From Psococerastis gibbosa (taxonomy: Eukaryota > Arthropoda > Insecta > Psocodea > Psocidae), in the NCBI GenBank assembly GCA_963971405.1, contig OZ020486.1, forward strand, positions 7,463,419-7,527,418: DNA of 64,000 nucleotides. The letters run 5' to 3'. A program made the translations under genes and the position numbers. This document shows, in pieces, positions 30,313 through 61,220 of the stretch. Under the pieces are notes generated by a model. The model had not been told where the DNA came from, did not search any database, and saw nothing but the letters and a program-made list of their open reading frames with translations. Each line of letters begins with the position of its first letter. Position 1 is the first letter of the stretch.

Positions 30313-31100
30313 CGGTGTGTATTCCACTTGTCATCAAATAATAACAAGATAAAATTAAATGATGAGAAATATCAATCGCCGTTTGTAAATTAAATAAAAA
30401 ATAAAAACCTGTTATTCCAGGGGTTACCAGTAACCAAGGACGGATACAGGGGGGGGGTAGGGGGGGTAGCTGCCCCCCCCCAAAAAAAAAAAAATTTGGT
30501 AAATCTATTGTAAATTAAGTTATTACGCTCTAATTTAGTCGATCCTACATAAGTTTTTCCTATTTTTACCCTCAGCTACTCCCCCCCCAAAAAAATGGGC
30601 TGGATCCGTCCCTGCCAGTAACTGCGTTTTACATCCCCTTAAGGCGTGTATTCCACTTGTCATCTTTTCTTCATCTGTGCACTAAAAGATGATGGGATTT
30701 TTGTTTTAAGTAGACTATTATGCAGATACTTAACTTATCTATTATAAATTAAGTCATAATGTGGTAGCAGACATCAATAATAAGTCTCTACCATATTATA
30801 ACTTAATTTAGAATACATAGATAAGTTAAGTATCTACATAATAGTCTCATTAAAACAAAAATCTCATCATCTTTTAGTGCACAGATGAAGAAAAGATGAC
30901 TAGTGGAATACACGCCTTAAGGGGATGTAAAACGTAGTTACTGGTACCCCCTGGAATAATAGGTTTTTATTTTTTATTTAATTTACGAACGGGGACTGAT
31001 ATTTCTTATCATTTAATTGACAGTCTTATCTTGTTATTATTTTAGTTGTTATTATTGAATCGGCTGGCGTAGTTAGTCTATGTGAGCCGATTCAACAATA
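30313..31100. mobile_element. Nested fold-back (palindromic) element
   Basis: Left-arm sequence from about 30336 is repeated inverted up to about 31043, with the turn near 30780-30790. Examples are 'ATAAAAACCTGTTATTCCAG' versus 31 kb-side CTGGAATAATAGGTTTTTAT, and 'TTAACTTATCTATTATAAAT' versus ATTTAGAATACATAGATAAG. The apex holds the motif TGGTAGCAGACAT. The tip 'GTGTATTCCACTTGTCATC' occurs twice in the left arm (30317 and 30645), suggesting one element inside another. A further hairpin around AATCGGCT..AGCCGATT follows at 31045-31145. There is no ORF. Confidence 0.75.
30435..30614. mobile_element. hAT-like MITE with perfect 8-bp target duplication
   Basis: CCAGTAAC at 30427-30434 and 30615-30622 flanks a 180-bp element with inverted ends CAAGGACGGATACAG / CTGGATCCGTCCCTG. 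Eight-base duplications and ends of this kind are typical of hAT transposons. The opposite arm of the surrounding palindrome (near 30935-30950) has the uninterrupted sequence, i.e. the empty site. The interior is G-, C- and A-rich low complexity. Confidence 0.85.
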
Positions 31101-31278
31101 ATAATAAAAATAATATGACATTAAATGATAAGTATCTGTCGTCGGATCGGGCCTAAGTATGTTAAAAGAACCGGTCCGAGTTTACTCGAACATGCTTTCC
31201 AATTTATCAAGTAGTAGCTAGAGAAAATGAGTAATTTCATGGTAAATAATTTTCCTCTAGTTAAATTTCGGGCATCTC

Positions 31279-31296
31279 GGGGGGGGGGGGGGGGGG
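31279..31296. repeat. Homopolymer G tract (18)
   Basis: The longest pure G run seen in the window. Confidence 0.9.
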
Positions 31297-31789
31297 TCCA
31301 CCTGACGTCACTGGAGGTGAGGTAAATTCTAAATAGGTCAGACCAACAAATTACCACCCAGCAATAATGGCAGGGCACTCAATGCATTTGACCGTGAATT
31401 TTCTATCATTTTTTCAAAAACATTTTTTTTTGCACAAAACCAAATAGTTTTTTGGGAAAGCAATCTGTCCGGTTTCGTTACTCAATTTAACACCTAAAAC
31501 ATGCCTGAAGGTAGAAATCATCGATGGAAAGGTTTCACAGAAAAATTATTTTTTAGTCATTTTTCATTAAAATTTAGTTATTTTTATTTTTTTACCCCCA
31601 GAAGCAAACTATCAAGGGGCAAGCGACCCCCCGCATTTTGTCAACATTAATAACGACTACAATATATGTGAATTTAAAAGAAATCGTTGGAGCCGTTTTT
31701 GAGAAATAATGTTTTTAGACGTTTTTTTGGAGTTTTTTTGAAAATAAAACCCCCCAAATTGAGATAGCCCTAAATAAAAAAAATAGTCT

Positions 31790-32010
31790 CGAGGTATAAT
31801 TTTTGTGAACCTACATGCCGAATTTCATCAAAATTGACCGAGTAGTTTGCCCGGAAATCGACGCACAGACAAACAGACAGAGCGACAGACAGACATTTCG
31901 TAAAAACCACTTTTTTGGGTTCCTGGGACCTCAAAACGTGTAAATCCGTTGAACTCTCGGAATCGAAAATTTGGACCATCACAAAGCTTTCCTTATACTA
32001 CGTATAAATT
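31790..32010 (+). repeat. Dispersed repeat with 'CCGAATTTCATCAAAAT' blocks
   Basis: Second of three copies (others 7003-7200 minus and 47935-48145 plus). It includes a (ACAG)n-like stretch 31868-31892 and the shared end 'GACCATCACAAAGCTTTCCT'. Confidence 0.55.
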
Positions 32011-32519
32011 GGAAAGCAAAAATTTGTTGTTGGAAGTTGTAGACTACTTCATACACAATGCCATAAGATTTTTATAATTTTTGGTGTTGCAGTTATTTAA
32101 TGAACTAAACGGAGGACTAAAATTTCACGCATTGTAATACTCATGGAGAAATGGCAGCACGAAAGCGAAATTTTGAAAGCAGGTGTTGGAAAACAAACAT
32201 TTTAATGCACACATACTGTATGTACCCGGCACTTACACTATTTGGCCACAGTTTTTGATGACGTAAAAAATGCAAGGTTATGGTCTGGTCCACACCTTCA
32301 AAAACTGTGGCCAGACGCTGTTACAAATCACGATACAAGTAGTCTTTCACTGTGATGCTATATTAAAATAAATGAAGAGGAACATTTTTCTTGGGGGATT
32401 CGGTCACGGAAGTTAGGGACATTATGGCTTTTGAACTAGGGGTATTATCGGCCCTGCAATGCCTTACAAGGGAGCTGGACGATGTAGTCACGATTTACGA
32501 GTAACTAAGTTTGTGCTGT

Positions 32520-32615
32520 GACGTGGAACCTACTTGGAACTAAAGAGAACGGCCCAAGACAGGGAGGAGTGGAGAAGGAGGTGGAAAGACTTGCTGCAAA
32601 CCAATCGTTAGATTG
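32520..32615 (+). pseudogene. LINE ORF2 extreme C-terminal fragment
   Basis: The plus frame reads 'GTYLELKRTAQDREEWRRRW' then KDLLQTNR and a stop. The A.DREEWR block directly before a stop is the end of a LINE polyprotein; upstream frames are broken. Confidence 0.55.
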
Positions 32616-33437
32616 AAACCAAAAACGATGAAGAAGTTTGTGCTGTACCTCGGCCTTCTATTGGCTTAGCCAAGTGGCCGTATAAGAAAAATCTCATTTC
32701 ATCTCATTTATGGTTATTTAATAAAAAAAAAATTTAGCTGCCATACGTCTGTAAAAAGGCAATTTTAAAATAATGACCGCTATATCTAGTCTATGGTAAC
32801 ATGCTTGATCCAGAATGTGCTTAGAAGAGGGTATAGACAGTGGAGAGGTTCTGATTTGACTCAGACTCTCGACCCATTAACGGTCTGTTATCGGGGTCGT
32901 CACCTGGAATTGACCATTAACATTTTAAAAGCTCACGGCCGTCTACATCACCAAACAACACTAACTATTAGCCCTGATCGTCATAATGTACAATATGTTG
33001 TGTTATTACTATAGTATTAGACTTTTATATAAGGTACGCCCATCTACATATCAGTGCCGTATTGTGTATAATATTTTTTAGGGGGAGGGGTAAGACCAGA
33101 TCTCCTCTAACTGGCAACTTCTTGCCGCGGGCAGAGGCCCGAGACGAAATTGAATTCTTCCAACTTAAGCGCTCACTGTTGATCTGAACATCTATATTAA
33201 TTAGGTCTGGCAAATTATGCATTACAACCAGGGCTTGAGAGGGGAGTCTCTGAAGCCACCTGAAATTTCTCCGGAATAGCAGCCCAGATGACAACAAATG
33301 TTTGCCCTCAATGTGTTCCAAAACTACTGACAAAAATATGATGAACTTGGGTAGGGTGTTCTGGGGATGCTCCCGAAGATTCCTTTTGATGTTTTCCCAG
33401 GAAATATGGATAGTAGGGCCATAAATGACATTACATC

Positions 33438-33571
33438 TAAGGCGGGTTTTCCATTGACCTCGTATTTGAACGTGAGCGTGATATTGACGTGGTAGCAGAC
33501 ATTAAAGACAGTCTAAAAATGTCTGCTACCAGGTCACGTTCAAATACGAGGTCAATGGAAACCCCGCCTTA
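33438..33571. mobile_element. Palindromic MITE, complete, 134 bp
   Basis: Left arm 'AAGGCGGGTTTTCCATTGAC' then CTCGTATTTGAACGTGA; right arm is its inverted copy TCACGTTCAAATACGAGGTC then AATGGAAACCCCGCCTT. The apex is 'GACGTGGTAGCAGACATT' .. AATGTCTGCTACC. The left arm has about 12 extra bases just before the apex. TA flanks both ends. It shares tips and apex with 60963-61093 and 36066-36960, while the arms between differ. Confidence 0.8.
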
Positions 33572-33599
33572 TATCATATCATAATATACTGTATATTAA

Positions 33600-36060
33600 A
33601 TAATTATTGAACGTTTCAGATCATACATTTAAAAGAGAAATTTAATCACAAAGAAATTAATTTTTATTTAAATTTTCCTCAATTATAAACCCCGCTTCGG
33701 TGGTTTCTTCGTCCCTTGTAAATATTATCATATGCATAACACATTTCACGCTGGTCCATGGAAGTGGGCGATACAAAAAAAGGCTCAAAGTCCTCTTTAA
33801 TACTGGCGGTATATGAAGTGAGCAAACTCGAAATTTTTTGTTTTTTGACAACTTCTATGTTTTTTCATGTTATGCTTGTATGGGAGCTAAGTCTTAGAAT
33901 AAAAATGGCATATGCACATTATTATTTTCATTTTATGAGTGAAAGGTTTGCTGCTTGCAGTTGAAGTGAGAAATTAGGGGAAATTGACTATTCGTGCCAA
34001 TAAATGGGGAGTCTTATTATTTAGCGATGTTGTTTGAGCGGTAAAAGGTTATTGTACCGTAGTGTCCTTCTAGTATGTGATAAGAATGAAGCTCCGCACT
34101 GACAGGTCAATTGCACAATACGCGAGGTACATTACTGTATATAGCGGCTAGTAATAAGGGTCTTTTCACACGTGGTCTTCTCTTAGCTCTAGGACGGTCT
34201 TAAAATGACCCTTCATTTGGTGTGCAACCTATTGTCGATATAATGTGACCCCCTAAAACTAGTGATGGACCCAAGCAATAGTTCGGTTTGACCGAGAAAC
34301 ACAACAAACTACAAGCCAAGCAAAACAATATTTTTTTGAGGTTTTCGCAGAATTCATATTTTTTTGAAAGCTACTAAAAGCCTCTTCACACTGCAAATCT
34401 AAATGTATGTAAATAAATAGCTCATTTCTAATGAAATTTATAAAAATAAAAATAAAATATTTTGCTTCTTACATGTTTCAGAAAAAGAGTATTTTTGCGT
34501 ACTCTAAACGACCTTCAGTTTGTAGAGTACACATGCATGAAAAAGAGTACAATACTCTGAAATACAGTAAGTTGGCAACCCTACTTGTATCTGATGTAAT
34601 ATGCTACCCTGGTAATCAAACCATCCTGCTTGCAGGAGCCCGCCGTAACAAGTTTCACTTCAAAAACGGATGTTAGAGGTGACCGGTTATAATAACTCTT
34701 TAAATGAAGAACTAATATGCCCACGCCTGCGCAATTCATTATACCGTAGCAGTGCCTTATTCCTTATGGGATGAAAACAGCGTTGTCACGAATCACGAAT
34801 CTTCTACAATGAAAACGTTTTAGCAATGAAAGTCCCGAGATTTTTGCAATCACACTAAAAAATATATTCGCCAGCGTCTGGTGCCTTTATCGTATCGTCT
34901 GGTGAAAGCGAAATGACAGATTTAACCATTATTAGTGCATGCCTAATAGGTGAAAATTGCCAAAGTATTGACAACAACCCAATGATAATAAAATAGAATA
35001 GATCGTGACTAGCCATAAGCCTAGTATTGCCGATAACGGGCACACGAAGTGGGACATGTCAAACAAAGGAAATTGTTGGGGGGGGGGGGGGGTTGGAAAC
35101 ATAAAAGAAGCAAATATCGGAAAATGAAAAATTCCTCAGGAGGGCTGACAATAGAATTGCAGGGGCTGAAGCTCTGCGCACAGCTTACGCTGGATGACAA
35201 CGGCGGAATCATTGGTTGATTGAGCCGTGAAGGGCCATGTTGCTATGTTGCTAGCCTGCTTTAACCTAGAAGCTTTCATGGGACGTATAGAACAAAATGT
35301 AAACTACCTTTTTAAAATGCTGCCATGTTGTTTTCTGGTTGAAGTGAGGCTCCATTATTATCTCTAAAAAATTGGCACTTGACATCAGCAGGCATAATGG
35401 CACAAACGGATAAGAATAACTTATCCGAAAATAATTGTCAATTATCCTGAATAAATCCCAATAAGTGTAAATTTACTTACAAAAATTAAAGCGAATTATA
35501 GATATTAAAATCGCAAATTGCTCGTCAATAGAGATTATTACCTGCTCACTGTTATATGTTATGCGTAGGCGGAACATTTTTTTTAAGGCTATTGGGCTGC
35601 ATGACAAATCAGTGGACTGTCCTCTGCTTTTGGAGTAAGTTTCTTTTAACACCGTATTTAAATGGTTTAAATAATTTTCGCGGGTAAGTTATTCCTCTTC
35701 CGTTGGTGCTATGCCTGGAGCTTAAATTACCCGGGGGAACAAAGTTACTTGCGTCTGTGGTGTATTGCCACCACACGTGTCGCCTCGGTAACACTAAATT
35801 AGCAGTAGCGATTCGCCACCAAAGCGCTGACCGACATAATATGCCGCGAATCTCTCTCGCCCATCTCAGAGAGTCAACGGTGACTATTATTTTGAAACGC
35901 TGGATGTCTAAACAATACCAAATTTACGGAGAACAACGGTTTCGTGGAGACATCTCGCTTATAATGGTTACCAAATGGCTAAGGGTGGGCGTTGGCTAGT
36001 AAGTAGGTTAGATTTGATAAATTCTTGACAAAACATTGGTATTGTTTCCATATGCCTTTA
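33600..36060. other. Gene-free stretch, no recognised content
   Basis: AT-rich DNA with scattered short open frames, none recognisable. A G run is at 35078-35092. I see no splice-supported exon. Confidence 0.45.
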
Positions 36061-36065
36061 TAAGG

Positions 36066-36450
36066 TGCCCATTCCACCGACCGGCTAGGGCTATTTACAA
36101 AAACAGTGACGTGGTAGCAGACATTCAAAACTTAGGCGGGGATTCCACCGACCTCGCATTGCAGAATTGACGGAAATGTTTATTTTCCTCCATGCCATAG
36201 TTAAAATCGATCAATGATCATACAGTAAAATCACAAACAAACAAACTAAAATTAAAAAAATGGCGTCATGGGATATGCTAAGTACAAACATTTTAATAGA
36301 TTTCTATAAAAAGAAAAATTCTAATTTCCGTCAATGTCATTTGCATTCTGCAATGCGAAGTCGGTAGAAACGCCACCTAAGTCTTGAATGTCGGCTACCA
36401 CGTCACTGTTTTTGTAAATAGCCTTAGCCGGTCAGTGGAATGGGCACCTA
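36066..36450. mobile_element. Nested palindromic element, copy 1
   Basis: Outer arms 'GGTGCCCATTCCACCGACCG' then GCTAGGGCTATTTACAAAAA and CAGTGACGTGGTAGCAGACA (36067-36130) are mirrored at 36385-36450. Exactly at the turn sits a second element, 36136-36378, with its own ends GGCGGGGATTCCACCGACCT and AGGTCGGT-like inverted end. Its interior equals, in the opposite orientation, that of 36627-36877. Confidence 0.75.
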
Positions 36451-36557
36451 AACACTGGTACAGGTCCTTGATGCGGTGATCCCAACGCGCCTTTATTGGC
36501 TGCAGCAAAGAGTAATGGTAATTGGAATAAAGGGTGCGCCTCGACTTGTACACCCTT

Positions 36558-36960
36558 TTTAGACGGGGTTTCCACCGACCCCTCATTGCAGAATGCGCAT
36601 ACGTGCAGCAGACATTCAAGACTTAGGCGGGGTTTCCACCGACCTCTCATTGCAGAATGCAAATGACATTGACGGAAATTAGAATTTTTCTTTTTATAGA
36701 AATCTATTAAAATGTTTGTACTTAACATATCCCATGACGCAATTTTTTAATTTTAGTTTGTTTGTGATTTTACTCTATGATCATTGATCAATTTTAACTG
36801 TGTCATAGAGTACAACATAAATTCTCGTCAATGTCATTTGCATTTTGCAATGACAGGTCGGTGGAAACCCCGCCTTAATTAATGATATCTACTAGCACGT
36901 CAACGTATGTGCATTCTGCAATGAGAGGTCGGTGGAAACCCCGCCTTACCTACTTAGTCA
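36558..36960. mobile_element. Nested palindromic element, copy 2
   Basis: Outer ends ACGGGGTTTCCACCGACCCC then TCATTGCAGAATGCGCATAC (36564 onward) are mirrored at 36900-36950. Inside lies a 250-bp element (36627-36877) with ends 'GGCGGGGTTTCCACCGACCT' / AGGTCGGTGGAAACCCCGCC and interior 'TGTTTGTACTTAACATATCC'. Again the inner copy sits between 'AGCAGACATTCAAGACTT' and its partial mirror, that is at the outer apex. Confidence 0.75.
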
Positions 36961-36964
36961 CCAC

Positions 36965-38320: not shown

Positions 38321-38324
38321 CATG

Positions 38325-38415
38325 TCTCAGCTTGTCCATTGTCGCATGTAGCCCGTGCAGGTTGGCATCGAGGACGTATACTAGTTTGCCAGCGGACAAA
38401 ACTCATACGGAAACA
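38325..38415 (-). repeat. Dispersed repeat family D
   Basis: 'TCTCAGCTTGTCCATTGTCG' and 'CATCGAGGACGTATACTAGTTTGCC' are the reverse complement of the blocks at 26940-27030. Confidence 0.5.
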
Positions 38416-38889
38416 ATACCAGTAATGCCTGAAAAAATTAATGAGGTTATTGGCAGGGCAATATTCCATGGGTCACTAAAGTAGGCCTACATCCATAAAA
38501 GGTATTCAAAATAATATTAATTATAAATAATAATAAATTCTAGCACTCTCCAATAGGCTACTTGGAACCCTATTTTAATGCATTAGCAGATTTATTTTAT
38601 GCCCATTAAAATTATTATTTTTTCCTAAAAATTAAAACGCTTGATGGTTAAAAAGGGAGTCACATATATCTCTATAATGTGACCTCTTCTATGATGGCCG
38701 CGGAGTAGCCGCCAGTACTACGTCCCTCATGACAATTCGGAATGTGACGTCATATTCATGTTACCCATGTCTGCCGGCGTTTTCGCTCTTGTAATCCACA
38801 GCTAAAACACCAACATTTATTTATTATTTTTTATCTTTCTTCCAAAAAACATTAATCGAAACATTAAGCTTCATGCTTTTAAGAGAAAG

Positions 38890-39595: not shown

Positions 39596-40170
39596 CTTGA
39601 CAACTGTTCTACATATCCATTAAATATTTTGTTAAAAAAGGTTATTATTCTACTGACTTTTTCTTAGTTTTAAGTGTGACGGAATTTATCATCCAACTAG
39701 GTAGCATATTTTATATTTTTTTGTTGCTACTGTCAAATCGACTACTCGCCATATTGGTATCGCAGGAGGACCCAGTTACGTAACGGTGCAGATATTTTTT
39801 TCTTTACTTTTTTCAGAGCTTAGAGTAATATTTAAACCTCTTTCATTCCACGAATTATATTTTAACTTATTGCTGAAACCTGAGGAAATGATATCAAAAT
39901 CGCTGAAAATTTCAATAACTGCCTTTGTTTATTGTTCATATTAATGGGATTGGTGTACCAATTTGGGAAGTACGAGTTTCGTATTCTGGTTTAAGATGTT
40001 TTGAAATTCAGACTGCGTGGTTTCTGGTTTTAAGTTCGTTTCTTTGTCCGGAAAGTAGATCTCTCACTGATTGCCGTAATGAAGTTGTTGCTCTGAATAA
40101 AGTAGCTTGGATAACTTATCGATCACACTGAGATTTTGCAGAATTAATGAATGAAAAACGGCTTCATATA

Positions 40171-40420
40171 AGAAAATTTGTGCACTGTGTGCAGTGTAAA
40201 TCCTTGTGAGAGTTTCCTTGGTGACTTCGTGGAACTTGGAGAACATCATGAGTAGAGGAAGAAGAACGCAATGATCCACAGTAGAATACTTTAATAGTGA
40301 CGTATTTTACTGTGGATCATTGCGTTCTTCTTCCTCTACTCATGATGTTCTCCAAGTTCCACGAAGTCACCAAGGAAACTCTCACAAGGATTTACACTGC
40401 ATACAGTGCACAAATTTTCT
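40171..40420. repeat. 113-bp inverted repeat with 24-bp spacer
   Basis: Left arm 40171-40283 and right arm 40308-40420 are reverse complements with a single mismatch (GTGTGC versus GTATGC), around the spacer 40284-40307. It lies 140 bp upstream of the Oatp exon 1 acceptor. It could form a long hairpin in RNA or cruciform DNA. No flanking target duplication was found. Confidence 0.9.
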
Positions 40421-40589
40421 TTCCAATGAAACTTCTACGCTACTAAGACCCGGTCCCAACATAGCATCGCTTGAAAAGTATCCCCCATCTACCATTCTAC
40501 CATTGATGGGAACTGCCCTAAGTAAAGTGAGAAAGACACCTAATGATCTCCTTTTTTTTTCAGAATACCCCACCACCACTGCCACCAGT

Positions 40590-43500
40590 ATGACAGTAGA
40601 GCACGGGCCCGTAAACAATACGTCTGCTGACTGGAACGATGCTGTCGCTGAAAAGGACAAAGTAGCTGCTGAAACGGAGACACCTGCTGACACCAATGGC
40701 GCTCTAGTGGCCAACGGCGAGGCAGTTGCTGAAGACAGCGAGAGTGACGACGAGGACCTACGCTGCGGCCTCGGCGTGCTATCACCGCAATGGATGCAAC
40801 TCTTCGCGTCCAAGCAAGCGTTCCTCGTCATCTTTTGCATCACCTGGGTCCTACAGGGCATGTACTACACCTACTTCGTCTCAGTCATTACCACCATCGA
40901 GAAACTCTTCCAGATCCAAAGCAAAACAACAGGGTTTATCATGAGCGCCACCGAAATTGGTCAGATTGGCTCGAGTCTCCTGCTAACCTATTTCGGCGGT
41001 CAGGGACATAGACCCAAATGGATCGCCTGGGGTATGGTTCTTTTCGCGGTCAGCTCCTTCACCTGCTCTGTGCCGCATTTCATTTTCGGCAACGAGCTTT
41101 TACACGCGCATGAAGTTTTGTACAGTGGGGTATCCGCGAAATCTCCGACCCCGCATCTGTGCCGGACTCGTGAGCCCATTTTCGGTCCCACCCCGTTGGC
41201 TCCTGGGGAAATCACGCGGAATTTGTTCCAAGAAAATCCAAGCTACGAGATGCGGAATAGTTTTTTAATTTTGAACGCCGTCGGAGCGTTGCCGTCGACG
41301 AATGCGTCAGTGAGTGCATTTCCCGTGGGAAATAATAGTTTAGTTAATGGTGTATGTCACGACGAGTTTTTGAAGGAGCAGGCGAAGCAAGGGAAGATCA
41401 CGAAAGTGGTGTTGGCGATATTTTTCATCAGTCTTCTCGGCGTCGGGATGGGCCAAACGGCTGTTTACACCCTAGGGATACCGTATATTGATGATAATGT
41501 CGCGACGAGGGAGTCCCCGCTTTACTTCGGTAAGTTGTATATTATGCTGGAATAGATTTGAAGGTAGCAATGTTTAGCTTATTACCCGTGAATACTACTC
41601 ATATCAAATCCTTGACATTGAAGGGCATTTATTCTTCCCTCTTAGTGCACCGTGAGAAGCATGAGGGGGTAGTCCCGGACCCATTTCTTATACTCGACCC
41701 GGTCGGGCAGCCTTTTATTCCCTCTTGCTCCGGCGAGTTGTTCGACTCTTTCCTCGAGGGTTGTCCTCGGTCTGCCGATGGGTCTTCTAGTTTGTGACCT
41801 TGCCAAGTTCGGGTTGTCCTATTCTCATCCATCCTTTGGACAAACCATTGCAGCTGCTTGTTCTCCATGTTCCTAACCACAATAATTTGTAAAATTGAGC
41901 ATTAGTCAAGAGAACGGATCCTCTACCAGTTCTCAGGCTAATGAACAACTGCAAACTTGCAAATTATCATCAATTGGCCAGGTAGTTAGTTGTGCACTAG
42001 GTCACACCAAGTTTCGTTTTTTTTTTCCTGCAACATTGTATGCTATGGCTTCTTTGTTATTTTCGCCAAGTCATTCGGCCCTGGGCACTTGTTCTCTTCG
42101 TGGTTCAGACATTGTATAGCACTAGAAAATGAAAGGGTTTTTCCATACATTGGCCGTCTCGCTGGAGAGACTGTGTATTGGCATCAAATTGGTTCACCGG
42201 CCTTGACTGGTTTCCAATGTGAACCAAAACCGTGTAGGCAGCTGCACGATTGGGCGCTGATTCGTCGGCCGGACGTTCAACTGTGACCGTAGTGATGTCC
42301 GCGGGACCCACGACGAGACGAGACTGCTGTTTTCGCTGAGGGACAGTCCTTGACTGCATTCCCGCGAAATAAGGGGAATTAATCGCGATTCCGATGTTTA
42401 GTCTTGGTGGTAGGAAACGTTCCTACTATGTGTAGCCAAGTTGGTCCGAAAGGGACAGTGGTTTTCGCTGCGGGACAGTCCTTGACTACATTCCAGTGAA
42501 ATAAGGGAAATTAGTCGTGATTCCGACGTTTAGTCGTGGTGGTAGGAAACGTTCCTACCATATAGCCAAGTTTACCCCTAAAAAGACAGCTGGTTTCGCT
42601 GCGGGACAGTCCTTGACTTCATTCCCGCGAAATCAGGGAAATTAATCGCGATTCCGATGTGTGGCCAAGTTGGTCCGAAAGGGACAGTGGTTTTCGCTAG
42701 GGGACAGTCCTTGACTTCCTTCCCGCGGGACACTCCTCCAGAAATAGGGGGAATAAGTTGCAATTCCGACGTTTTTTAATAGATATACCGTAGCCAGAAG
42801 ACAGCGGTTTTTGCTGCGGGACGGGACACGGGACAGGACAACTGTTATCGCTGCTGGACGGTCCTTGACTTCATTCCCGAGTGATGGGGGCACCGGGCTC
42901 TGCGATTAATATTTTCATGAGATGTTTGATTTTTGCACTTAAGTCAGGACATGTATAGAGTAGTGGTACGGACTCTGACTTTCACCCTAAAGGTTGTTGG
43001 TTCGAGTCCTTAACTTGCTTCATTTTCTGGCCATGCTTCGGAGGGCATGTAAAGCAGGTGGTCCCGGGTCTTCCTAGTTGAGTGTAAGAGAGGGCTGTAT
43101 AGCCCTGACTCCTCTAGGTTGGCTTAGTAATGGTATTATAATAGTTATTTATTTAAAAGGTCCCTCCGATTGTCTCTTAAGATATTTCTGCAGTAAAAGC
43201 TATTCCTTCCTTGTAAAGATATGTTCACAAAAAATTATGTGAAGGACTGAATTGTGTCAATTCAAACTAAAAGTTTCGGCTGGTTAGAATTTAATTAAAA
43301 TTAAAATCGTAATGTAGGCCGTGCAGTTTTACTATAGGTACTACGTATTAAAAATGATTGTTTATGTTCCTTAATGATTTAGAACGTAATTCCCATCCAA
43401 TTATCGTCTGGCCAGTGGCGATGTCGCTTTTTGTGGGTAAACAACTGATATCTTATCATAATTGTATACATGCAGGAATGTGTCTCTGAGATCCATTAGT

Positions 43501-49500: not shown

Positions 49501-52500
49501 TGCAAGGCGATCCCACTGTCCTGATCGTCCGTCAGAAGTCCCACCCCTCATAGAACCGTCTTCATGTAGCTACTGTTGAACAATGGTTGAGTGGTGTCGT
49601 GTGAGAATACTGGATGGGTTGGTGAAGAAATGGTGTCATTGCGAGACACTTCCTTGACGATCCCACTGTCCTGATCGCCCGTCGAAAATTCCACTCCACA
49701 AGGAACCATCATGTTAACAACTATTGAACAATGGTGGTTGGGAGTCGATTGAGAAAAACGGACGGGTTGGCGAAGTAAGTGAAAAGATAGGGTGCCGTTG
49801 CGAGACACTTGCCAGCCGATCCCACCCCACTCATCTAGGGACTGCTGAACAATGGTTGATTAGAGTCGATTGAGAAAAACGGTCGGGTTGGCGAAGAAAT
49901 CGTGTTATCGACGATCCCACTGTTCTAATTGCCCGTCGGAAGTCCCACCCCACAAAGAACCTTCTTGATAGTAACTGTTGAACACAATAGTTGAGAGGAG
50001 TCGAGTGAGGAAAACGGTCGGGTTGGCGAAGGAATCGTGCTATCGACGATCTCACTGTTCTAATTGCCCGTCGGAAGTCCCACCCCACAAAGAACCTTCT
50101 TGATAGTAACTGTTGAACAATAGTTGAGAGGAGTCGAGTGAGGAAAACGGTCGGGTTGGCGAAGAAAGTGGAGAGACAGGATGTCCTTGCGAGACCCTTG
50201 CCAGACGATCCCACTGTCCTTGGCAGTGAACTTTACTAACCAACCAATTGATCCTGTTCAATTACACATAAACTGGAACTTATTTAACTCACTGTTCTCA
50301 CGCGCAACCAAAGATATTTTTTATTGGTTTATTTTAATATTATATAATATATCTGTCCCGCTTTGCGGGGCTTCGTGTTGCCCATGCCCGTCATATGCTC
50401 ATACGGAAATAAAGTGTCTGATAAATCCATGGGGTCGTCGGCCCAGTCGGGCCCAATCTGAGAAACGGCTGGGGATTGCGACCTCTAGTCATAACATAAC
50501 AAGCAAAAATATGTTTATTTTTTCTGTTGCAGATTTCCCAGCGGCAGTTAAGCGACTGCTGAAGAACGACATTTTGATGTTTCGGACTGCGAGCAGTGTG
50601 CTTCACATCCTTCCCATTGCCGGTGTCTATACCTTTCTTCCTAAATACCTCGAGTCGCAATTCAGACTCCCCGCACATCATGCCAACATGATTTCTGGTA
50701 AGTTAGGGTAAATTAGCGTAAGTCATTGGAGTGGGCAGCCCAAAATACCGTAAATGGCGAAATTTCTTTGGGAGCCCCTGCAAGGTATTGCGTATCTGCA
50801 TAGCCGGAATCCTTATAAGCTAATCATGGGCGACATTTGTGGGATTTGACCCCCTATCAGAAGAGGGCTTCTTGCTTTTTTCTATCGGAAAGTTCTCTAT
50901 TCATCAGTAGGTTGGCTGGAAATATCAGTTCTTGATTTTTTTTCAGGTGTTGGTGGCATTCTAGTTATGGGTCTTGGCATAATAATCAGTGGCGTATTCA
51001 TTCTGCGTGTGAAGCCCAATGCAAGGTTCGTCGCGGCTTGGATAGCGTTCACAGCTGTAGTTTACGCCATTGGTATGTCTTTACTACTGAGTATTACTCA
51101 TCAGTTTTTTAACATATTAAATGAGGAGGGAATTCACCCCTTTTCATTAGCACCTTTTCTTTTGCTTCGTACCCGAACTTGGTGAAGTCATGTTTACGCC
51201 TATGTAGTTGTCTCAATGGTAAACATAGTGAGATATAGATCGTTAGAAAATCCGTGTATTTATGGGGGGGGGGGGGGGGGAAATAGGCACAAAGAGAATT
51301 ACAAAGCCGAAGCGTGTGAGGGTGGCACATGTCTCAGCTTGTCCATTGACGCTTGAGGCCGATGTAGGATTATATCAAGGACGTGTAGTTAGGTAGCCAA
51401 CAAAAAGCTCTAGTGTTTCCATATGATATGCCAAAGGCTGGTGAGGTTAGGTGTGAATAGGTTTTCATATTCCTCGCTCTGATTGCATTATCTTTCAAAA
51501 CCATGGCCAATCGACGTTAGTGGTGGACACATACTATGCATTAAAATGTAGTTATCTAAATGGTGGCTTTGTCCTCAATATTTCCGATGAAATAAATTTT
51601 AAATCGTAACACAGGTGCTATGGTGCATGGGGTCTTAAGTGTTTCGGTTATTATCATGATTGAAATAAAATAACGAATACTGTTTGCAGGTATGTGCATA
51701 CTTATGATGATAGGCTGCCCGATGGACGACCTGGTCGGTCTGGACCAGCGGCGTCAGGGCCAGGACCTGTTGGCGCCAGCTTGCAACGTGTCGTGCTCCT
51801 GCTACTCAGACCGATTCTCACCGGTTTGCGGCGCCGACGGCAGGACGTACTTCTCCGCGTGCCATGCAGGCTGTCGCAACGCTACTGTCAGAGATGGCAT
51901 TTTACACGAGGTACGTAACTACCTACAGATAACTTAGTGCCAGGATCTGGACCTGCTGACGCCAGCTTGCAACTGATATTCGAATTGGTTGGCGGCGCTG
52001 ATTGCAAGACGTACTTCTCCGCGTACCATGCTGATACAATTCTATTATTCGAAGATGTCATTTTTATGTCAGGCCCTGTTGTCGCCAGTTTGCAAATTTC
52101 GTGCAGCAGCACTTCGGACCGGTTCTCACCGACAGCTGGACTTCTCCATGTGCCATGCAGCCTGTCGCAACGCTCCTGCCAGATATGGCATGTTTTTATT
52201 ATTATTATTATTATTATAGAAGTAGTAGAAGAGCATAAGTACCTTGGTCTGCAAATTGACAGTAGAATGACGAGGGAAAACCACATAGAAAGACTATGCA
52301 AACGACTACGCTCAGGGAGTGCGGCTTTGGCACGATTAAAATATGGAGTACCTTTTAAAACAATTAAATTAGCATACCATGCCCTGGTCGAATCCATAGT
52401 AAGCTACGGCATAACAGTATATTTCAAAGATAGGAATACATACACCTACAAACTAGAAATGGTACAACAACGTATAATAAAAAATATGTTATCAAGTAAA

Positions 52501-55500
52501 AATAACATGAAATACAAACAATACGACGAAAAATTTAAACATGCTAACATTTTGCCAATAACTAAATTATTCAAGTATAAAGTAATAAGGGATAACTATT
52601 TTAAAAATGAATTCCAAGTAGATGATAAAGGGAAGTATAATACAAGAAACCCAAAAAAGCTTAAGTTTGAGATAACATATAACAAATATGGAGAAAGATT
52701 AAACAAAGTACTCATACCAAAGATACTAAATGAACTTCCTCCAGAAATGAAAAAAATTAAACAGATGGGTGAGTTAAAAGCGGGGATAAAAAAATGGTTG
52801 GTCAATGGGAGGGAATAATAATAAAAGCAGACTATTAACATAAAAAATAAAAATAAAAAATAAAATAAAATAAATAAGTAAATAAAAAAACAGTAGGCCT
52901 ATAAATAAAAAATAATAAAAAATATTATTTTAAAATAAGAAAATATAATATGATAATATCTTGTTTTAGCAGCACTGTATAAGTCCTTTGTCCCAATCGA
53001 GCTTTAGCTTGGGGATAAGGGATGTTATCATTATGTCTATTGTATTTTGTAAATATATGCTCCTTGTCCAGGGGATACTGGGCAAGGAAAAGAAAGAAAA
53101 AAAAGATTATTATTTTGTAGAGAGTTGAAGCTGACACAGGTTTTATGACCATATGAACAGCATAATTATTGGTTACTACAATCAGACTTGATTCCGATTT
53201 TGCATTCTGACTGGGTTTTGGCACACGGTCTTTGGGATCACTGATGATAGCAGGGCAAATAGTTCAGATTGCTTTTCTTGATAAGTTGCTGAAAGAAGAT
53301 TAATTCGAATGTCTCTACTAGCTAAGCCAATGACAATAGACAACAAGGTTTCAATAAGCCAAAGGCTGCAGTAGATGTTAAACCCAAGCTAATGTATCAT
53401 GCTAATTATAATTATTTATTGTTTGTTTCAGTTTACGGATTGTTCCTGCGTAACTCAGTCAAATACAACGATCACTGTGAATTCCATGTATTCAGAGGTG
53501 AGAAATACTTTAACCTATTCTTCAGAATGTAGCACTTCAGAAAGGGAAACAGCCTTAGTCTTAGACTTTACATTTATAACTTATTAACTTTTTTCCTCCG
53601 ATCGGGGTTGTTAGCCCTTATTGCAACCCAATTCACTTGTCTTACTTTTATAACCTGAGGTTTCACATTGTGTCTCTCTGGTTACACTTCCCCTTCGTCA
53701 AGAGGTAGCTGCTTAGGTAACCCCTGGACTGTGTCCTGTTTTTACTTTGCTATTGTTTCGGTCCCATTTGTCCCTGCAGCGTAGCCACTCGACAACCGCC
53801 CCACAAACTTGCCAACACTTATCAGACCAGCGTGTGTCTGCACATTCTGACAGGCTTTCGGCAGTCTCTTGACATGAAGACTGTCATTGAGAGCATCGAA
53901 CGTTTATGCAGCAGGATGCACGCCGTGTTCAGATTGTTCACTTCGACAAGCAGCAGCTTGCAAGTCAGATTCCTACTAGAATCACTGTTTCCAGAAGGCA
54001 TCCGGATGACACGTATTAACTTAATAATGTAGAACATAGAACGGGGGAATAAAACACAAAGGGGCTTCAGGGAAGATACTCACACGGTACAATCTTTCGG
54101 AACTCAAGGTCCATGTTTTATTCCTCACGACCTAGACTAGACAGTATGACAATATATGTCTTCTATTTAGGTGTCTACTGCGAACATCGGGTACTGTGAT
54201 CTCCAATGCTCAAATTTTGTACCGTACATCCTGCTATTCTCCCTTTTCGTGTTTATCCATTCGACGTCAGAAGTAGGCAGTATGCTGCTGATACTTCGCT
54301 GTGTCGACCCCCGAGACAAGGCGATGGCACTTGGTCTCATTCAGTTTGCCATCGGCCTTTTCGGTAAGTTGCTTGGCGGTGCCAATAGAACTAAGCAAAC
54401 GTTATTTCAAAGGTACTTTATACCAATTACGACATACAGTTAGGAGACAGAGGTCTGCTGACGGACAAGAAATGGAAACAATACACCCTTTGTCACGTCA
54501 TGTGATGAACGAAAAGTATCGCCTTCTGCATGTAATAATCCAAGGGAAGATAGAAGGACAGAGGGCTCACGGCAGAAGAAGAACATTATGGTTTGATAAC
54601 CTGAGGCAGTGTTTCGGCAAGAGCTCGACTTCCCCTTTCAGTGCAGCCGTCTCCTAGGTCCAAATTGCCATGATGATCGTCCATCTTCGATAGAAGAGAC
54701 ATTTAAAGAAAATGAGAAGAGAGTTTCGGGTGGAGGAACCATTGGTGGAGAACTGCAACGGTTTGGACAAGTAAAGTGAATGGGTAATAGCAGGTGTGCG
54801 AGGAAATTGCTGGAAGGGGGGGGGGGGGGAATATGAAATGTTGATCGTATAGCTGTCGAATATATCACATTCCTTAGAAGAAATGCTCCTCTACATGTTG
54901 ATGTATATATAAAACCGATTGGCCATAATAATCGAACTTGATTTGTGGAAAAGAACTGGCCAATCGGTGTTAGTGACGGTCACATACATTTCAAAATGAA
55001 GAAGAGAATTTTTTTAACGGGTGCGACATTTTTGATTTTCCACACTTTGTAACAAATGTGTGTGTATGGGGGTAGGGGGTGTCCGATTTAAGGGGATTTG
55101 GTTGCATTTGCGCTTAAGACTAATCGCTTGGTTTTATTTCAGGAAACGTGCCTTGTCCGATTGTATATGGCGCAGTTGTAGACTACGCATGTCTCATTTG
55201 GGATAAAGCCTGCGGCAAGCAAGGTGCCTGCTGGCTGTATGACACGAAAATGTTTAGAACATTTTTCCATGGTAAGTGCTACAGTTTCTCGATTGATAAG
55301 TTTGTAAAATTCAGTTAAATGTTGTTATTCGTGGTCGTATCAGCTAACACTGGTAGTATACTGAGAGCTTATAGACGTAGACCTACTTCAGTTGCCCATT
55401 CAACCTTGCCCTGCTTACGACCTCATCGATGTATTGAACATTTTTTTTAAACATTGCATTGTTTCCGTATGACAAACTGGTAGATGCCCTCATTGTGAAC

Positions 55501-56229: not shown

Positions 56230-56501
56230 CAGTACTGTGATTATGGACAGCTATAGTACTAGCTGGGTCACATTGGCGTCCCTGCCACTGCTGTCGTGGC
56301 AGTAGAACAAACCGGGTGAAATCCTATTATACCTCAACACTTTTCTACAGCATGGCCGCTGAGGCCTGTTTATGTAACGTGACCATAACATGATGTATAT
56401 AGACAGCAGAGATCTGTTATTTTGTCATCCAGATTGCAGACGGCATTTTTTAGGATGAAGACAGTTGCACTTGCCAATGTTATGGTAAATGTCGATGTCT
56501 G

Positions 56502-56507
56502 AATAAA
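56502..56507 (+). terminator. Poly(A) signal AATAAA of Oatp
   Basis: The first AATAAA after the stop (270 bp). It fits a short 3' UTR. The GACCGGTTTCG-type repeat (inverted, 56536-56546) starts about 30 bp further on, so the transcript end and a repeat boundary nearly coincide. Confidence 0.65.
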
Positions 56508-56535
56508 ATCCAAGTCCGCGTTTCTTTCCTTAGGT

Positions 56536-56910
56536 CGAAACCGGTCAGGTTTGGTAGCCCTTATTGCAGCCGTTGGCTTATTGTAACCTGAGGTTTAAAA
56601 TTGGTTTCCTCTGGTTACCCTCTCCCCGAAATAGCTGCTGTAGTAGCCCCTGGACTAAGCTTTGTTTTGTTCCGCTATTTTGTGCCATCTTTTATATTTG
56701 CGAGTGTCTCACAAACTTGCCAATACCTATCAGTCTAATTAGTGTTCGCACATACTGACAGGTTTTTAGGGGTCACAATGATGTACACGGTCTTTGAGAT
56801 CATCGAACATAGCAGCAGTAGGATGTATTGCGCTCAGATGGTTCACTTTGACTAATTGCTGCATGATTCCAAGAAAAAGCAATGTTTCCACAAGCTATGC
56901 CGATGGCTTT
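56536..56910 (+). repeat. Dispersed repeat family C with GACCGGTTTCG-type end
   Basis: It begins with the inverted CGAAACCGGTC motif, then 'TAGCCCTTATTGCAGCC', 'CCTGAGGTTTAAAATTGG', 'ACTGACAGGTTTTTAGGGGT', 'GAGATCATCGAACATAGCAG' and 'TTCCACAAGCTATGCCGATG'. It is the longest copy of family C and links that family to the GACCGGTTTCG motif. Confidence 0.6.
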
Positions 56911-56919
56911 CAACGCCTT

Positions 56920-59840
56920 TCATTGGACCACTTTCGTAAAGGAAAATAGTTGCGCCCACCAATCATATTATGGGCCAAACCAATCAAAACATTGGGATTT
57001 GAAATCATTTCCCTATGGATTTCTATATGAATGAGGTTCGTTGATTTGGTAGTCCAGTGGCCTGCTACTAGTTTTTAATCTGGGAGATCCGGATTGAATG
57101 TGTAGTCGGTTGTATTTTTAAGGAATGTTGCCATTAAATGTAAATTTTCGGTGTCTTTTTTATTAAATCCGGTTTAAGAAAGGAGTAAGTAAGCAATAGG
57201 GTGGACAGCGGCCATGTTGTACAAAAGTGACTTGGTTGTGTGGGCCTAAAGTGGTACCTCCTTAAGACTAGTTTTAACACATGCTGCTCCATGGCGTTTT
57301 ATATATATATGGGGATAACAATATTTTCCAGCGTCTGCTGAAATGTAGCTGAGAATGCCCAACGTGATCGCTGCTTGTTGGTTTGTGATGAAACTATCAA
57401 CCTCCGAAGGTTAACTTTTTCGATTATGGCCCGGTACACACAAATTACCGCGACGTCGGTGACGCGCTGGGAAATTTTTCATTGGTGCAAATGGGCTTGG
57501 AGAATGTCTGGTGCAAAAGCACAGAGTGTACTTCAAAATATTTCTGTGGCCTGGCGTGTCGAGGGAAGACCCGTGCACGGGTGTGTGGTCAGTAGAACGC
57601 TTCCGAGTTGACTCTGTGGTTTTCCAACTACCCATTTGCTGCAATGATAAAGTTCCCAGCGCGTCACAATCATCCGTGTTTTTCTTCATTCTACTGCGAT
57701 CTCAGTGAAAGCAAGGAGATAATAATTTGGGATTAACTTTAAGCAGAATGTGTGTAAAGCTAGTCTTTAACATCGGTCAGTATCGTTGCTTTTTTGGTGT
57801 ACAAATATTCTGTGTTTTTGGACTAAAAACTGGAGCAAATAAACTCAGCCAAATGTCTGCATCACAAATGTCGCCATTAGAGAGTAGTTCCATTTTTTTT
57901 TTTTTAATTTTGGTGCAAAAGCTTTTCTGTGAAACTGATATGTGACAAATGTACTTATGTAATTATGAAGTTCGTGAAAAAAATTATAACAAAAATAGAT
58001 AATCCGTGTAGTTATCGAAAATACAATACCATTTAAATTTCATATTTGTGCCCCCTCAAGCCGAAGTGTTTGACGGTGGCACAAAATGACAAGGTGGTAG
58101 CGTGCTTATGCTTGTGCTATCGGAGACGTGTCGTAACTCAACACGGGTACAAACCTACAGAGGCGACTGAAGAGGTAAATCGGATACATTCATTAAATTG
58201 TTTGCATGTGATTTTTTTTAAATTAAAAAAAGGGTATGAAATAGTCGCTACTAACTGACGAGACCAAATCTTTATAAGTTATGTATTGAAATTAAATCAA
58301 ACATGTAAACCATTCTATTTTGGGGCGATCCAGCCTTAACTAATGTCAGTAGTCATCTTCCTCTTAAAATTTACAACATTTATGTTTAAAATAAATTTTT
58401 GTTGAACTCTAATATGATGTCATGTGTGAATGTGTGAAAAAACACTCTAGTCTGAAAAATTCAATAATTGGGGCGGAGACAACGTTACAGCGAAAAAGTA
58501 TAACAAAAAGACCGGTGCTTCTTAGGAGGTAACAATTTAGTTCGTGAGAATCTTAACAAAATGGGCATTCGCCTATGGAGCTCCTAATTCTTTTTTATGG
58601 TTTTAATTTGTCTTGTCTTATATTGTATTTAATTCTTTGTTTGATGCTAGAGAGTTGGCTTCTACGTTTTGGACTTGGTTTTAATGTTTTTGTTTTGAGT
58701 GGATTTTAGTGTGGGGTAACAGGTTTTTGTCGGTTTTTAAATTTTCTAGATTTTATAGGTTATTTTAATATTAAAATTTTCAGCAATTCTTACATTACTT
58801 ATGATTAATGTAGGTATCTTTACAACGTTTTGTATTGTAAATTGTACGTATATACTAGCATTTATATACAATATTAGTGGGTTTCGGTGGCATAACTAAC
58901 TTGTATATTTTCTTTAAAACTTTTACAACAGCCCATGTACCTGTTATTATTAGTTGTGAAGCCAACTCTCTTAAGTGGGCCATTTCAGATTTTATAGAAA
59001 ACAGTTGTAGATTCCGTTCATTTTACAGTGCATATTTAAGAAAAAAGTTTTATATTTTATGTTGCATTTTTTGTTTTTATTCTAATAGTTTATCGAATCA
59101 AAATATAATTTTTTTCCGTCACATGTGAGCTCCATGTATGGGAACGTTTACTTATAAGTCCAATGTGGCGATGTTGTTTCTCAGGCCTATATTTTAGCAC
59201 CAGTCAGGTGTTTAGGCCAAGTAAATGCGGCCATGAAAAAAATATTTTGTCACTTAATATTATTTTATTTTAAAGCTTCGGGAAAAACAACCGCGTACAT
59301 TTGTTACTTTTTTTTTATTAAGGGCGTCCGTGCAATAATGGCTAAACAGTCGTCATATTGGATTTCTCTTGTGAACATTTCCATTACAAATAATGCATGG
59401 CCGTTTGTGAAAACCGGCAAACTATTATCGATTTCTACTTAGTAAGTGATTTTTGTAATGGTACATTTTGCTAGATGAATAACTTATGATTTTACATATT
59501 ATTTACGTTGCAATGAAAATTTATGGATACGATAGCTAAAGATCAAACTCTGCCAATTGTTCATTTTAGTGATTGTGAATGTAACTAAACCAAATACAAA
59601 ATCCAAATGATAAAATATTTAATTTTACTACCCGTTATCAGGCTACTTAAGGCAGAGATTTAAAAATAGTTTGTAAACAAATGACGACCGAGCCTTTTTG
59701 GTGAAATTAATTGATTTTTCGTTCTGAAATAACTGCAAAGATGTGAGAAAGGCCAGATGAAAATTTATATAAAATATAAGCTTAAAACTCAGACTATTCA
59801 CCCAACTGAATGACTATACTGTTGTTTTGTATAAAATCAG
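56920..59840. other. Gene-free stretch
   Basis: No exon recognised. It has one-sided similarity to the 4518-4798 MITE at about 57425-57470 and the repeat at 58050-58310. The open frames at 57375-57611 and 58877-59128 show no known motif. (TA)n at 57299-57310. Confidence 0.45.
58050..58310 (+). repeat. Dispersed repeat, longest copy of its family
   Basis: 'GTAGCGTGCTTATGCTTGTG', 'AGACGTGTCGTAACTCAACA', 'AATCGGATACATTCATTAAA' and 'GAGACCAAATCTTTATAAGT' are shared in pieces with 29325-29480 (inverted), 21460-21560 and 5085-5185. No coding motif. Confidence 0.45.
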
Positions 59841-59849
59841 TGTCTTAAT

Positions 59850-60270
59850 ATGCCTCATCTAGTGATCATTGGCGACCATCATAGCAATTTAGACCCTGGA
59901 CACTGCTGCTCTGAAGAGGGAAGTCGTGCTCTTGTCAAACCACTACCTCAGGTTTTTCAATCAGGATGTTCTTCTTCAGCCGGGAGCCCTCTGTCCTTCT
60001 ATCTTCCCTTGGATTATAACATGCAGAAGGAGATATTTTGCGTTCTTCATCACATGCCCGAAGTATGCTAGTTTCCCATTCTTAACCGTGAGCAGCAACT
60101 CGGCTTCTGTATCATTCGCCTCAGGACCTCAGCATTAGGGACACGATCTCTCCAAGATATGCGCAGCATTCGTGCGTTTATCCAAAATTCAAATGCACTG
60201 ATTCTGTTCTCCATAGCTTGGGTTAACCTCCATCCCTCCTTACCATTTAGAACGATCATTTCACCATTCT
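59850..60270 (-). pseudogene. LINE ORF2 C-terminal fragment
   Basis: The minus strand reads 'GWRLTQAMENRISAFEFWIN', 'RMLRISWRDRVPNAEVLRRM' and, with stops, 'RTQNISFCML' and a GR-rich tail. The order E.W.L...ENKI.AFE.W..RRMLRISW.DRV.N.EVL.RM is a standard post-reverse-transcriptase block of arthropod LINEs. It has several stops, so it is inactive. Confidence 0.75.
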
Positions 60271-60962
60271 CAATCGAAGGTCAAACCACATATCAGTGTA
60301 AAGTACTTTATCGTGTGTAACTAGAGTAATAATTTTTCAATTGGGACAGCGTAAATTCACTGCAAAAAGCTTTTATTTTTTATGCATTTTCCATCTGACC
60401 ATTTGCATATCTTTGCGGCTGCAGAACGAGCAATTAATTAATTTGATCAAAAAACTCAGACGTCATTTGTTTACGAAATATTTTGCAATCTCTACCTTAG
60501 GTAATTACATAAATTTAAAATAAATAAATAATTATTTTTTTCGTTTTATGTACAGGCGTAAAAAAATATAAAAGTGTTGAGTTAGGCAAAATTCGTCTAT
60601 TCTAGGCGAAAGTGTACTGCAGACATGAAAATTCCTTTCTTGGCTGAGTTTGACAAAAGGGAAAGTGTTTCTTGCTTCAATATATAATGAGCGATAGTTA
60701 TTTCTAGCAATTCGTGCCTTATATTGTTGATTTAAACGTTATGTTAGCTACAAGGATTCGGGCCCAGTCCCTAAGCTGACAGTCAGGTTCCAAGTGGCGG
60801 CGTCCAATCATAACCACGATGTCCCCAAATTGGTATCGGCCAATTGTTTTGCATACAATTGGCGTCTCCTACTTGGAACTTATCATAATTATAATCAGAG
60901 CCCTTTTATAAACTGGAACATGGACAAGGCTGATAGTATGATATCTGTTATGTACACTGTTA

Positions 60963-61093
60963 TTAAGGCACAAATACCACCGACCTCGATAGTGATAGTG
61001 ATATTGACGTGGTAGCAGATATTTTTAGACTCTTTAATGTCTGCTACCACGTCAATACCACTATCACTATCTAGGTCGGGTGAATTTGCGCCT
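60963..61093. mobile_element. Palindromic MITE sharing apex with 33438-33571
   Basis: Left arm 'AAGGCACAAATACCACCGAC' then CTCGATAGTGATAGTGATAT and apex TTGACGTGGTAGCAGATATT. Right arm AATGTCTGCTACCACGTCAA then TACCACTATCACTATCTAGG and TCGGGTGAATTTGCGCCT. Apex loop 'TTTTTAGACTCTTTAAT' is the inverse of the loop at 33505-33525. The arms between tip and apex are unrelated to those at 33438. Confidence 0.8.
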
Positions 61094-61094
61094 G

Positions 61095-61220
61095 AGGCCA
61101 TCGAACATAGCAGATATTGGATGAACAGTGTTTTCATATTGGTCAGATTGTCAGTTGCTGCAAGTCGAGATTACCGATAAGAAGCACTGTGCACAAGCTA
61201 TAAAGTTCTGTAGGGACAGT
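61095..61220 (+). repeat. Fragment of dispersed repeat family C
   Basis: 'GGCCATCGAACATAGCAGAT', 'GGTCAGATTGTCAGTTGCTG' and 'GAAGCACTGTGCACAAGCTA' match the right half of 56536-56910. It abuts the palindromic MITE ending at 61093. Confidence 0.5.

Follow-up and report, generated by a model that had tools for sequence, protein, structure and literature searches.

Palindromic elements in the window

The window, i.e. the whole stretch of DNA analysed here, comprises 64,000 nucleotides of contig OZ020486.1 from Psococerastis gibbosa, whose genome has 409 Mb in 68 contigs. Two stretches of the window matched the OATP transporter family; among the best 120 of 435 matches of the OATP exon, the named relatives were insects, and the top named one by E-value was Polyplax serrata with 50% identity. 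No Rfam family matched within the window at the gathering threshold, and no tRNA was found in it. The preliminary description had placed palindromes at 30640, 33438, 36066, 36558 and 60963, and indeed a palindrome was present at each of these five sites. The features and their boundaries are as follows:

30314..31018, no strand: larger palindrome with arms at 30353-30434 and 30937-31018 and the tip GGTGTGTATTCCACTTGTC at 30314
30640..30919, no strand: long-armed relative, body 30643-30916, with the apex TAATGTGGTAGCAGACATC and its diverged mirror
33438..33571, no strand: solo hairpin of class G, body 33441-33568, flanked by TAA (33438-33440) and TTA (33569-33571)
36061..36451, no strand: composite hairpin of class A, body 36064-36448, flanked by TAA and TAA
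36135..36377, no strand: inner element nested in the class A composite, with related tips and arm
36559..36948, no strand: composite hairpin of class C, body 36562-36945, flanked by TTA and TTA
36626..36874, no strand: inner element nested in the class C composite, with the arm TCTCATTGCAGAATGCAAATGACATT
60964..61095, no strand: solo hairpin of class H, body 60967-61092, flanked by TAA and TGA

The two solo hairpins are each ~130 bp long. The left arm of the hairpin at 33441-33568 is TCGTATTTGAACGTGAGCGTGATATT, and its right arm is deleted in part, with 14 letters left. The hairpin at 60967-61092 has the left arm TCGATAGTGATAGTGATATT and a right arm equal in length with 2 differences; a copy with identical arms is present at locus L007 (apex halves at 1751 and 1783). 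The elements at 36066 and 36558 had been described as palindromes. They are palindromic, and their structure is that of a hairpin carrying a second element in its loop, with a length of 384-385 bp for both composites. In the class A composite, the outer arm GGCTAGGGCTATTTACAAAAACAGT is followed by the apex and then by the nested element inside the loop; this inner element is without the apex motif and has an 11-bp deletion in one arm. The class C composite has an outer arm near TCTCATTGCAGAATGCACATACGTT and an asymmetric loop, with CAAGACTTA on one side and ATATCATTAATTAA on the other. The weaker element, originally delimited as 30640-30950, is likewise a palindrome, and we assign it to a class in which the arms are longer and the apex has diverged; its body is 30643-30916, and relatives lie at L017, L018, L044 and L052. 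It is placed at the CCCCTTAAGGGG (TTAA) centre of the larger palindrome 30314..31018, for which a right tip was looked for and not found.

As had been noticed before, a tip (GG(C/T)GnnnWTTCCA) and an apex (GTGGTAGCAGACAT) recur across the elements, and the 33438 and 60963 copies have a common loop in opposite orientation. The latter is expected, since a palindrome can insert either way round.

Copy number

The apex 15-mer GTGGTAGCAGACATT occurred 26,337 times in the genome (13,090 + 13,247), versus 3 occurrences (1 + 2) of the reversed-pattern control. The 18-mer apex GACGTGGTAGCAGACATT had three exact matches in the window, plus one with a mismatch; when up to 3 edits were allowed, it had 32 matches in a grid sample of twenty 10-kb stretches (~200 kb) versus 0 in shuffled sequence. 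The palindromes are thus far above chance. The matches in the grid sample represent 18 elements, of which 14 are composites, making these the majority form, with two of the 14, both at L044, resembling one inverted duplication. From 18 elements in 197 kb, the number of elements in the genome is estimated at ~37,000 (95% range 22,000-59,000). Their lengths range from ~126 to 400 bp, and the family makes up very roughly 3% of the genome, a value calculated with element lengths entered by hand. The apex 18-mer had 0 matches in viral contigs and was present at 3 loci in the searched genome contigs; the apex 15-mer was found at 65 loci in viral contigs, each with one match, and the inner tip pattern had 0 matches.

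Element ends, target duplication and the likely transposase

For the comparison of ends and arms, arms were taken as half-elements, from tip to apex. From 129 half-elements initially collected, 12 were dropped for lack of a recognised tip (two, L015 1550 and L014 2078, are real halves, and the rest resemble chance apex matches) and 3 for a false tip (window 405, L053 5449 and L048 4292). The remaining 114 halves formed 49 pairs and 16 singles; L004 was omitted because it duplicates the window element. The set of 49 pairs is non-random, as 30 of the 50 genome loci had been retrieved by a search with the 33438 element, in which 40 out of 1085 candidates were scored.

The elements end in GG(C/T)G and have a 3-bp target duplication, TTA or TAA. 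TWA was present on both sides in 32 of the 49 elements with both halves; it was concordant in 25 of these and discordant in 7 (Fisher p 0.0036). The flanking 3-mers were identical in 26 of the 49, compared with a mean of 14.7 and a maximum of 24 for shuffled pairing. Genome-wide, one end type (GGCGGGGTTTCCA..TGGAAACCCCGCC) had 575 concordant copies, TTA..TTA or TAA..TAA (303 + 272). The 3-bp TWA duplication is that of PIF/Harbinger (Tourist-like MITE) elements, and the small size, terminal inverted repeats and high copy number are those of MITEs, with a length that allows little coding room.

Two other lengths of target duplication were considered and rejected as the rule. A 2-bp TA duplication, as in Tc1/mariner (Stowaway-like) elements, does not account for the third base, which is also common to both sides in 25 of 32 elements; a TA-only reading is needed in at most 7 of 32, and genome-wide 87 TTA..TAA copies stand against the 575 concordant ones. 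For a piggyBac-like 4-bp TTAA duplication, identical flanking 4-mers were found in 0 of 49 elements, when the start of the body is taken as GG(C/T)G.

The PF13359 (DDE_Tnp_4) profile gave 150 scored genome matches among 220 candidates, and many like-scoring copies have open transposase frames of 375-384 aa, so PIF/Harbinger-type transposons have probably been active recently. The elements are non-autonomous inverted-repeat MITEs whose ends and duplication fit PIF/Harbinger, and a PIF/Harbinger transposase is most likely the mover.

The arms belong to one alignable family

Tips and apex had been proposed to be kept while the arms change. This was borne out for 14 class representatives, with a mean pairwise identity of 0.75 for the tip, 0.55 for the arm and 0.95 for the apex, the last value being inflated because the halves were found through the apex. 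Matches to the tip revealed relatives without an apex or with a diverged one, namely the inner element and the long-armed class.

The arms of the 33438 and 60963 elements had been called completely different. This is wrong: both terminate in GTGATATT and can be aligned over their full length with a score reached by 1 of 20,000 shuffles, one 6-bp deletion and five substitutions leading from the former to the latter. When 3 tip-side and 4 apex-side letters were trimmed, the direct match was weak (728 of 20,000 shuffles), so the link rests on an intermediate at L005. One arm of this element has 26 nt, and its opposite arm is identical but for the 6-bp deletion (TCGTATTTGAACGTGATATT); five substitutions separate the shortened arm from TCGATAGTGATAGTGATATT.

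The same held for the whole set. At z of at least 5, 23 arm classes, each copied from a sampled element, connected into one chain, and a 10-class tree had a mean link of 6.1 and a weakest link of 3.0, whereas none of 40 shuffled sets exceeded 2.46 and 1.35, respectively. For a minimum spanning tree, we dropped 2 long-armed halves and added 25 arms picked from 72 genome arms, which gave 88 distinct arms (137 half-elements). The maximum step was 0.36 normalised edit distance; in the control with shuffled arms, in which random pairs and not nearest neighbours were compared, the mean was 0.56 and the lowest of 200 values 0.38. The order of the arm ladder was A, B, B2, I, C, inner type, G, H, D, F, E. 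When whole arms were tested, 0-3 of 20,000 shuffles reached the score in four of the weakest links; with cores trimmed as above, three of these became marginal (D-F 87, inner-G 111 and G2-H 164 of 20,000) and the fourth was reached by 1 of 20,000. Classes A and C, and A and G, showed no direct arm similarity even untrimmed (4982 and 14,973 of 20,000 shuffles), and classes as far apart as A and G are joined by way of intermediates only. With more copies, the arms thus form one alignable family of 23 classes, with weakest links that are marginal when trimmed, and the suggestion of unrelated arms did not hold. One alignable family is the outcome that the preliminary description itself had named as refuting an exchange between elements. 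On alignment, the arms appear unrelated only until many copies are included.

An exchange of arms between elements by template switch or ectopic conversion would replace the middle at once and leave tips and apex in place. Such an event could be read from the class C outer tip and arm, which equal those of the inner element over the first 36 letters (L040), from unlike tips within one element (GGCGGGG/GGCGCCG in L038, GGCGGGG/GGCGCGG in L035, an outer and an inner tip in L040) and from the lack of direct similarity between the A and G arms. However, small-step intermediates join the classes, the 25-nt arm classes can be aligned with few or no gaps, and the inner-type arm is joined straight to the apex in solo hairpins (C1:27187942 and C1:38903958), so that no transfer has to be assumed for the class C arm. 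Given the connected classes and the small-step spanning tree, we reject an exchange of unrelated arms as the general explanation and regard arm exchange in place of the stepwise family as quite improbable, although some exchange may have occurred, as in the elements with unlike tips.

Class differences are largely mirrored in the two arms, single-copy changes are not

The loop is directional, with AAAGAC on one side and TTTAGAC on the other, and the two arms of an element can therefore be distinguished. In class G, the alignment comprised 27 elements, namely the window copy and 26 of the 29 other loci (without L006, L015 and L026), which had been selected for their resemblance to the 33438 element and are not a random sample. 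Mirrored and unmirrored states numbered 4 and 0 at column 23, 7 and 0 at column 29, and 7 and 8 at column 38. None of the 43 private (single-copy) substitutions was mirrored; a mirrored single-copy change at column 36 of L017 was not scored as private since L028 has the same letter in one arm. The two arms were unlike at columns 22, 41 and 48 in 6, 8 and 18 of the 27 elements, which shows that asymmetric founders can multiply. As read off the alignment, all 18 elements with a T or C in column 48 had it on the TTTAGAC side (L027 differs on the opposite side as well), and no inversion of the loop (spacer) was found among these 18 informative class G elements. In class G, the arms agreed more within elements than between them, with a value of 1575 versus a mean of 1547 and a maximum of 1561 in 500 shuffles.

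In 13 of 14 composites, one (L043) being dropped for length, the agreement of arms within elements was 751 versus a mean of 707 and a maximum of 737 in 1000 shuffles. Shared changes were mirrored in 34 cases and unmirrored in 34, and 2 of 23 private changes were mirrored, both in the sole class B2 copy. Arm lengths were equal in 40 of the 49 paired elements, at 20, 25, 26 and 27 nt, and length differences of 1 nt and 6 bp were present in both arms (26/26 in class D, 27/27 in the 27-nt variant and 20/20 in class H). Asymmetric classes exist as well: in E (48 vs 27 nt) and E3 (37 vs 27 nt) a long insertion is confined to one arm, and the arms of class F are unlike each other.

Plain decay of a single family was rejected, as the differences between classes are mirrored in most classes and those of single copies are not. 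The arms might also mutate independently, with no copying at all, if selection for a paired hairpin retained only compensated pairs. Paired arms do endure large divergence in most classes, and the complete absence of mirrored private substitutions in class G is expected when copying is rare or absent. Against this, strict pairing is evidently not required, given the 18 of 27 class G elements that differ at column 48 and the unlike arms of classes E and F, and the mirrored lengths of D, its 27-nt counterpart and H could hardly be produced point by point. We therefore consider compensation unlikely. The results support re-copying from one arm to the other within an element, with the asymmetric classes E, E3 and F and the even split of shared changes in the composites counting against it. 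Since the arms match in most classes and private substitutions in class G are unmirrored, founder lineages seem to be the level at which homogenisation operates. We conclude that one arm is occasionally copied into the other along founder lineages and that the asymmetric states represent the interval between such events. The 43 unmirrored substitutions would, as we reason, still be compatible with a modest rate of hairpin repair after insertion, since private changes arise later than the insertion itself and repair would erase a change as often as mirror it. The earlier proposal that arms are re-copied or exchanged thus stands for re-copying within an element, seen in the mirrored class changes, whereas exchange between elements is not needed, given the small-step intermediates.

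Composites

The centre of the composites reads AGACTTA, inner element, TAAGTCT. Class C and I composites have an asymmetric loop, with CAAGACTTA beside the inner element on one side and ATATCATTAAT on the other, and the polarity of the inner element, judged by eye, was the same in 4 of 4 (the window copy at 36562-36945 and L005, each with both sides, and L040 and L053 with one side each). In the class I composite of L005, both outer arms are TCTAAGTGCAGAATACACATACGGT and the loop is still asymmetric. The inner-type arm together with the class C/I loop is also present in solo hairpins of the genome. The simplest reading is a single insertion of a family member into the loop, followed by amplification and mirrored drift of the arms, with the loop asymmetry lost later in B and A.

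Discussion

To summarize, we think it probable that the palindromes constitute one very large, diverse MITE superfamily that is moved by PIF/Harbinger, changes by mirrored re-copying of its arms and forms loop-nested composites. The conserved tip would be the cut site, and the apex, which in the short classes lies ~40-70 bp inward from each end, may be a second recognition site or a loop-forming element; its role in recognition is a guess. Internal sequences of mPing do affect mobility, but no promoting motif common to mPing and mPong was found (PMC9921582). The arms between tip and apex would drift under weak constraint. While a lineage is active, one arm would sometimes receive a change that arose in its partner, with template switching or mismatch repair on the hairpin as the most likely route, and new founders would mostly regain matching arms and then amplify. 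For the composites, a family member would have inserted in the hairpin loop, and the composite would then have amplified while its arms diverged in concert, presumably in the order C, I, B2, B, A.

The elements resemble the Tourist-like MITEs of the PIF/Harbinger group (mPing/Ping/PIF) in being short and gene-free with a 3-bp TTA/TAA duplication. Tourist-like MITEs have GG-rich terminal repeats, as do the elements here. A 3-bp target site duplication and an extended target preference are described for PIF/Harbinger (PMC2836001). Unlike Tourist-like MITEs, the elements here are mostly palindrome, with a conserved apex, and loop-nested composites predominate. The use of one arm as the template for the other is also like quasi-palindrome correction, in which template switching on short inverted repeats abolishes the differences between the arms (PMC8604942). 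Here, in contrast, the process would run along transposon founder lineages and give serial arm classes, and the spacer inversion also described for template switching was seen in none of the 18 informative class G elements. With Galileo and other Foldback-like elements, the family shares long inverted repeats, a variable terminal structure and a palindromic target motif (PMC4168063); however, Galileo belongs to the P superfamily and makes 7-8 bp duplications, as opposed to 3-bp TWA. Among the titles and abstract openings of the open-access literature, we recognised no paper describing this palindromic MITE family. It is a large, unusual MITE superfamily and not a new kind of element.

MITE families are commonly viewed as an ancestor plus decay. 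The ~37,000 palindromes described here, with mostly matched arms, record the frequency of inverted-repeat re-copying in an animal genome. They also call for caution, as hairpin elements that share ends and centre may seem chimeric when few of them are compared.

The target duplication may carry a further record. For the end type counted genome-wide, the 87 TTA..TAA copies (T-to-A) compare with 25 TTA..TSA copies (T-to-C or T-to-G; 10 + 15). Transitions are usually commoner than transversions. In the sampled pairs, TAA..TTA (4) and TTA..TAA (3) were about equally frequent. Tentatively, the TWA duplication could serve as an intrinsic reporter of the repair that hairpins undergo once inserted: in a folded palindrome, the middle bases of the duplicate would be opposed as a T.T or A.A mismatch in every fresh insertion, and hairpin repair would convert TTA..TTA to TTA..TAA or TAA..TTA. 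The skew may instead stem from an occasional 2-bp TA duplication at TTAA sites or from a Tc1/mariner-type mover, with which both the excess of 87 over 25 and the centre of the composites agree. We consider this doubtful, since concordant TWA prevails both genome-wide and in the sample, and since a TA duplication at TTAA gives no TAA..TTA unless there is an extra A at an end, whereas this form was as frequent as its reverse in the sample and is that of the 33438 element itself.

Should the TWA duplication indeed report hairpin repair, the T-to-A excess would measure the germ-line rate of extrusion and correction of resident palindromes genome-wide, and the same repair would also account for arms that diverge as mirror images. 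Palindrome extrusion and correction, on which most work to date, to our knowledge, concerns microbes and yeast, could then be counted straight from an assembled genome.

Arm deletions and tip variability

Among the 27 aligned class G elements of the hairpin family (palindromic MITEs with a conserved apex), arm deletions were found in six: those at loci L005, L008, L014, L021 and L032 of the same genome and the element at 33441-33568 of the window. In all six, the arm that carries the deletion was the one on the loop's TTTAGAC side, and in four of them it was the identical 6-bp deletion; this one-sidedness may reflect a bias, because the loci of the alignment were picked by similarity to the window element itself (the 33438 element). 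Within the tip, the triplet following GG(C/T)G was the most variable part, with an identity between classes of 0.33. Despite this variability between classes, tip positions 5-8 were the same at both ends in 36 of the 49 elements for which both halves were available.

Other repeats and an open frame in the window

Further features of the window
4522-4789, inverted-repeat element
18572-18816, inverted-repeat element
40170-40421, near-perfect palindrome (arms 120 bp, 98%; centre 12 bp)
42321-42657, tandem array, 132-bp unit
49841-50167, tandem array, 135-bp unit
51919-52818, open frame, 299 aa

A terminal stretch resembling CGATTCTCGCTGTCGCG is common to both inverted-repeat elements, which look like a separate MITE family in the same genome. 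The palindrome and the beginning of the open frame in an OATP transporter exon overlap. The tips of this palindrome did not match those of the hairpin MITE family; it could be a different element or an assembly artefact. Both tandem arrays lie between the two stretches that match OATP, or close to them. The likeness of the 299-aa frame to a portion of a non-LTR reverse transcriptase is only an impression, since the Pfam search of the window gave no match for this frame.

Composites at two loci

Composites, in which an inner element is nested in the loop of an outer hairpin, showed two further arrangements. At L044:2439-3246, two class A composites are oriented as mirror images, with GGCTTGGGCT present in both inner-facing outer arms; this arrangement resembles a local inverted duplication. 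The composite at L040:2478-2785 has an outer tip at its left end and an inner tip at its right end, and is flanked on both sides by concordant TAA, as if one outer and one inner end had been jointly used in transposition.
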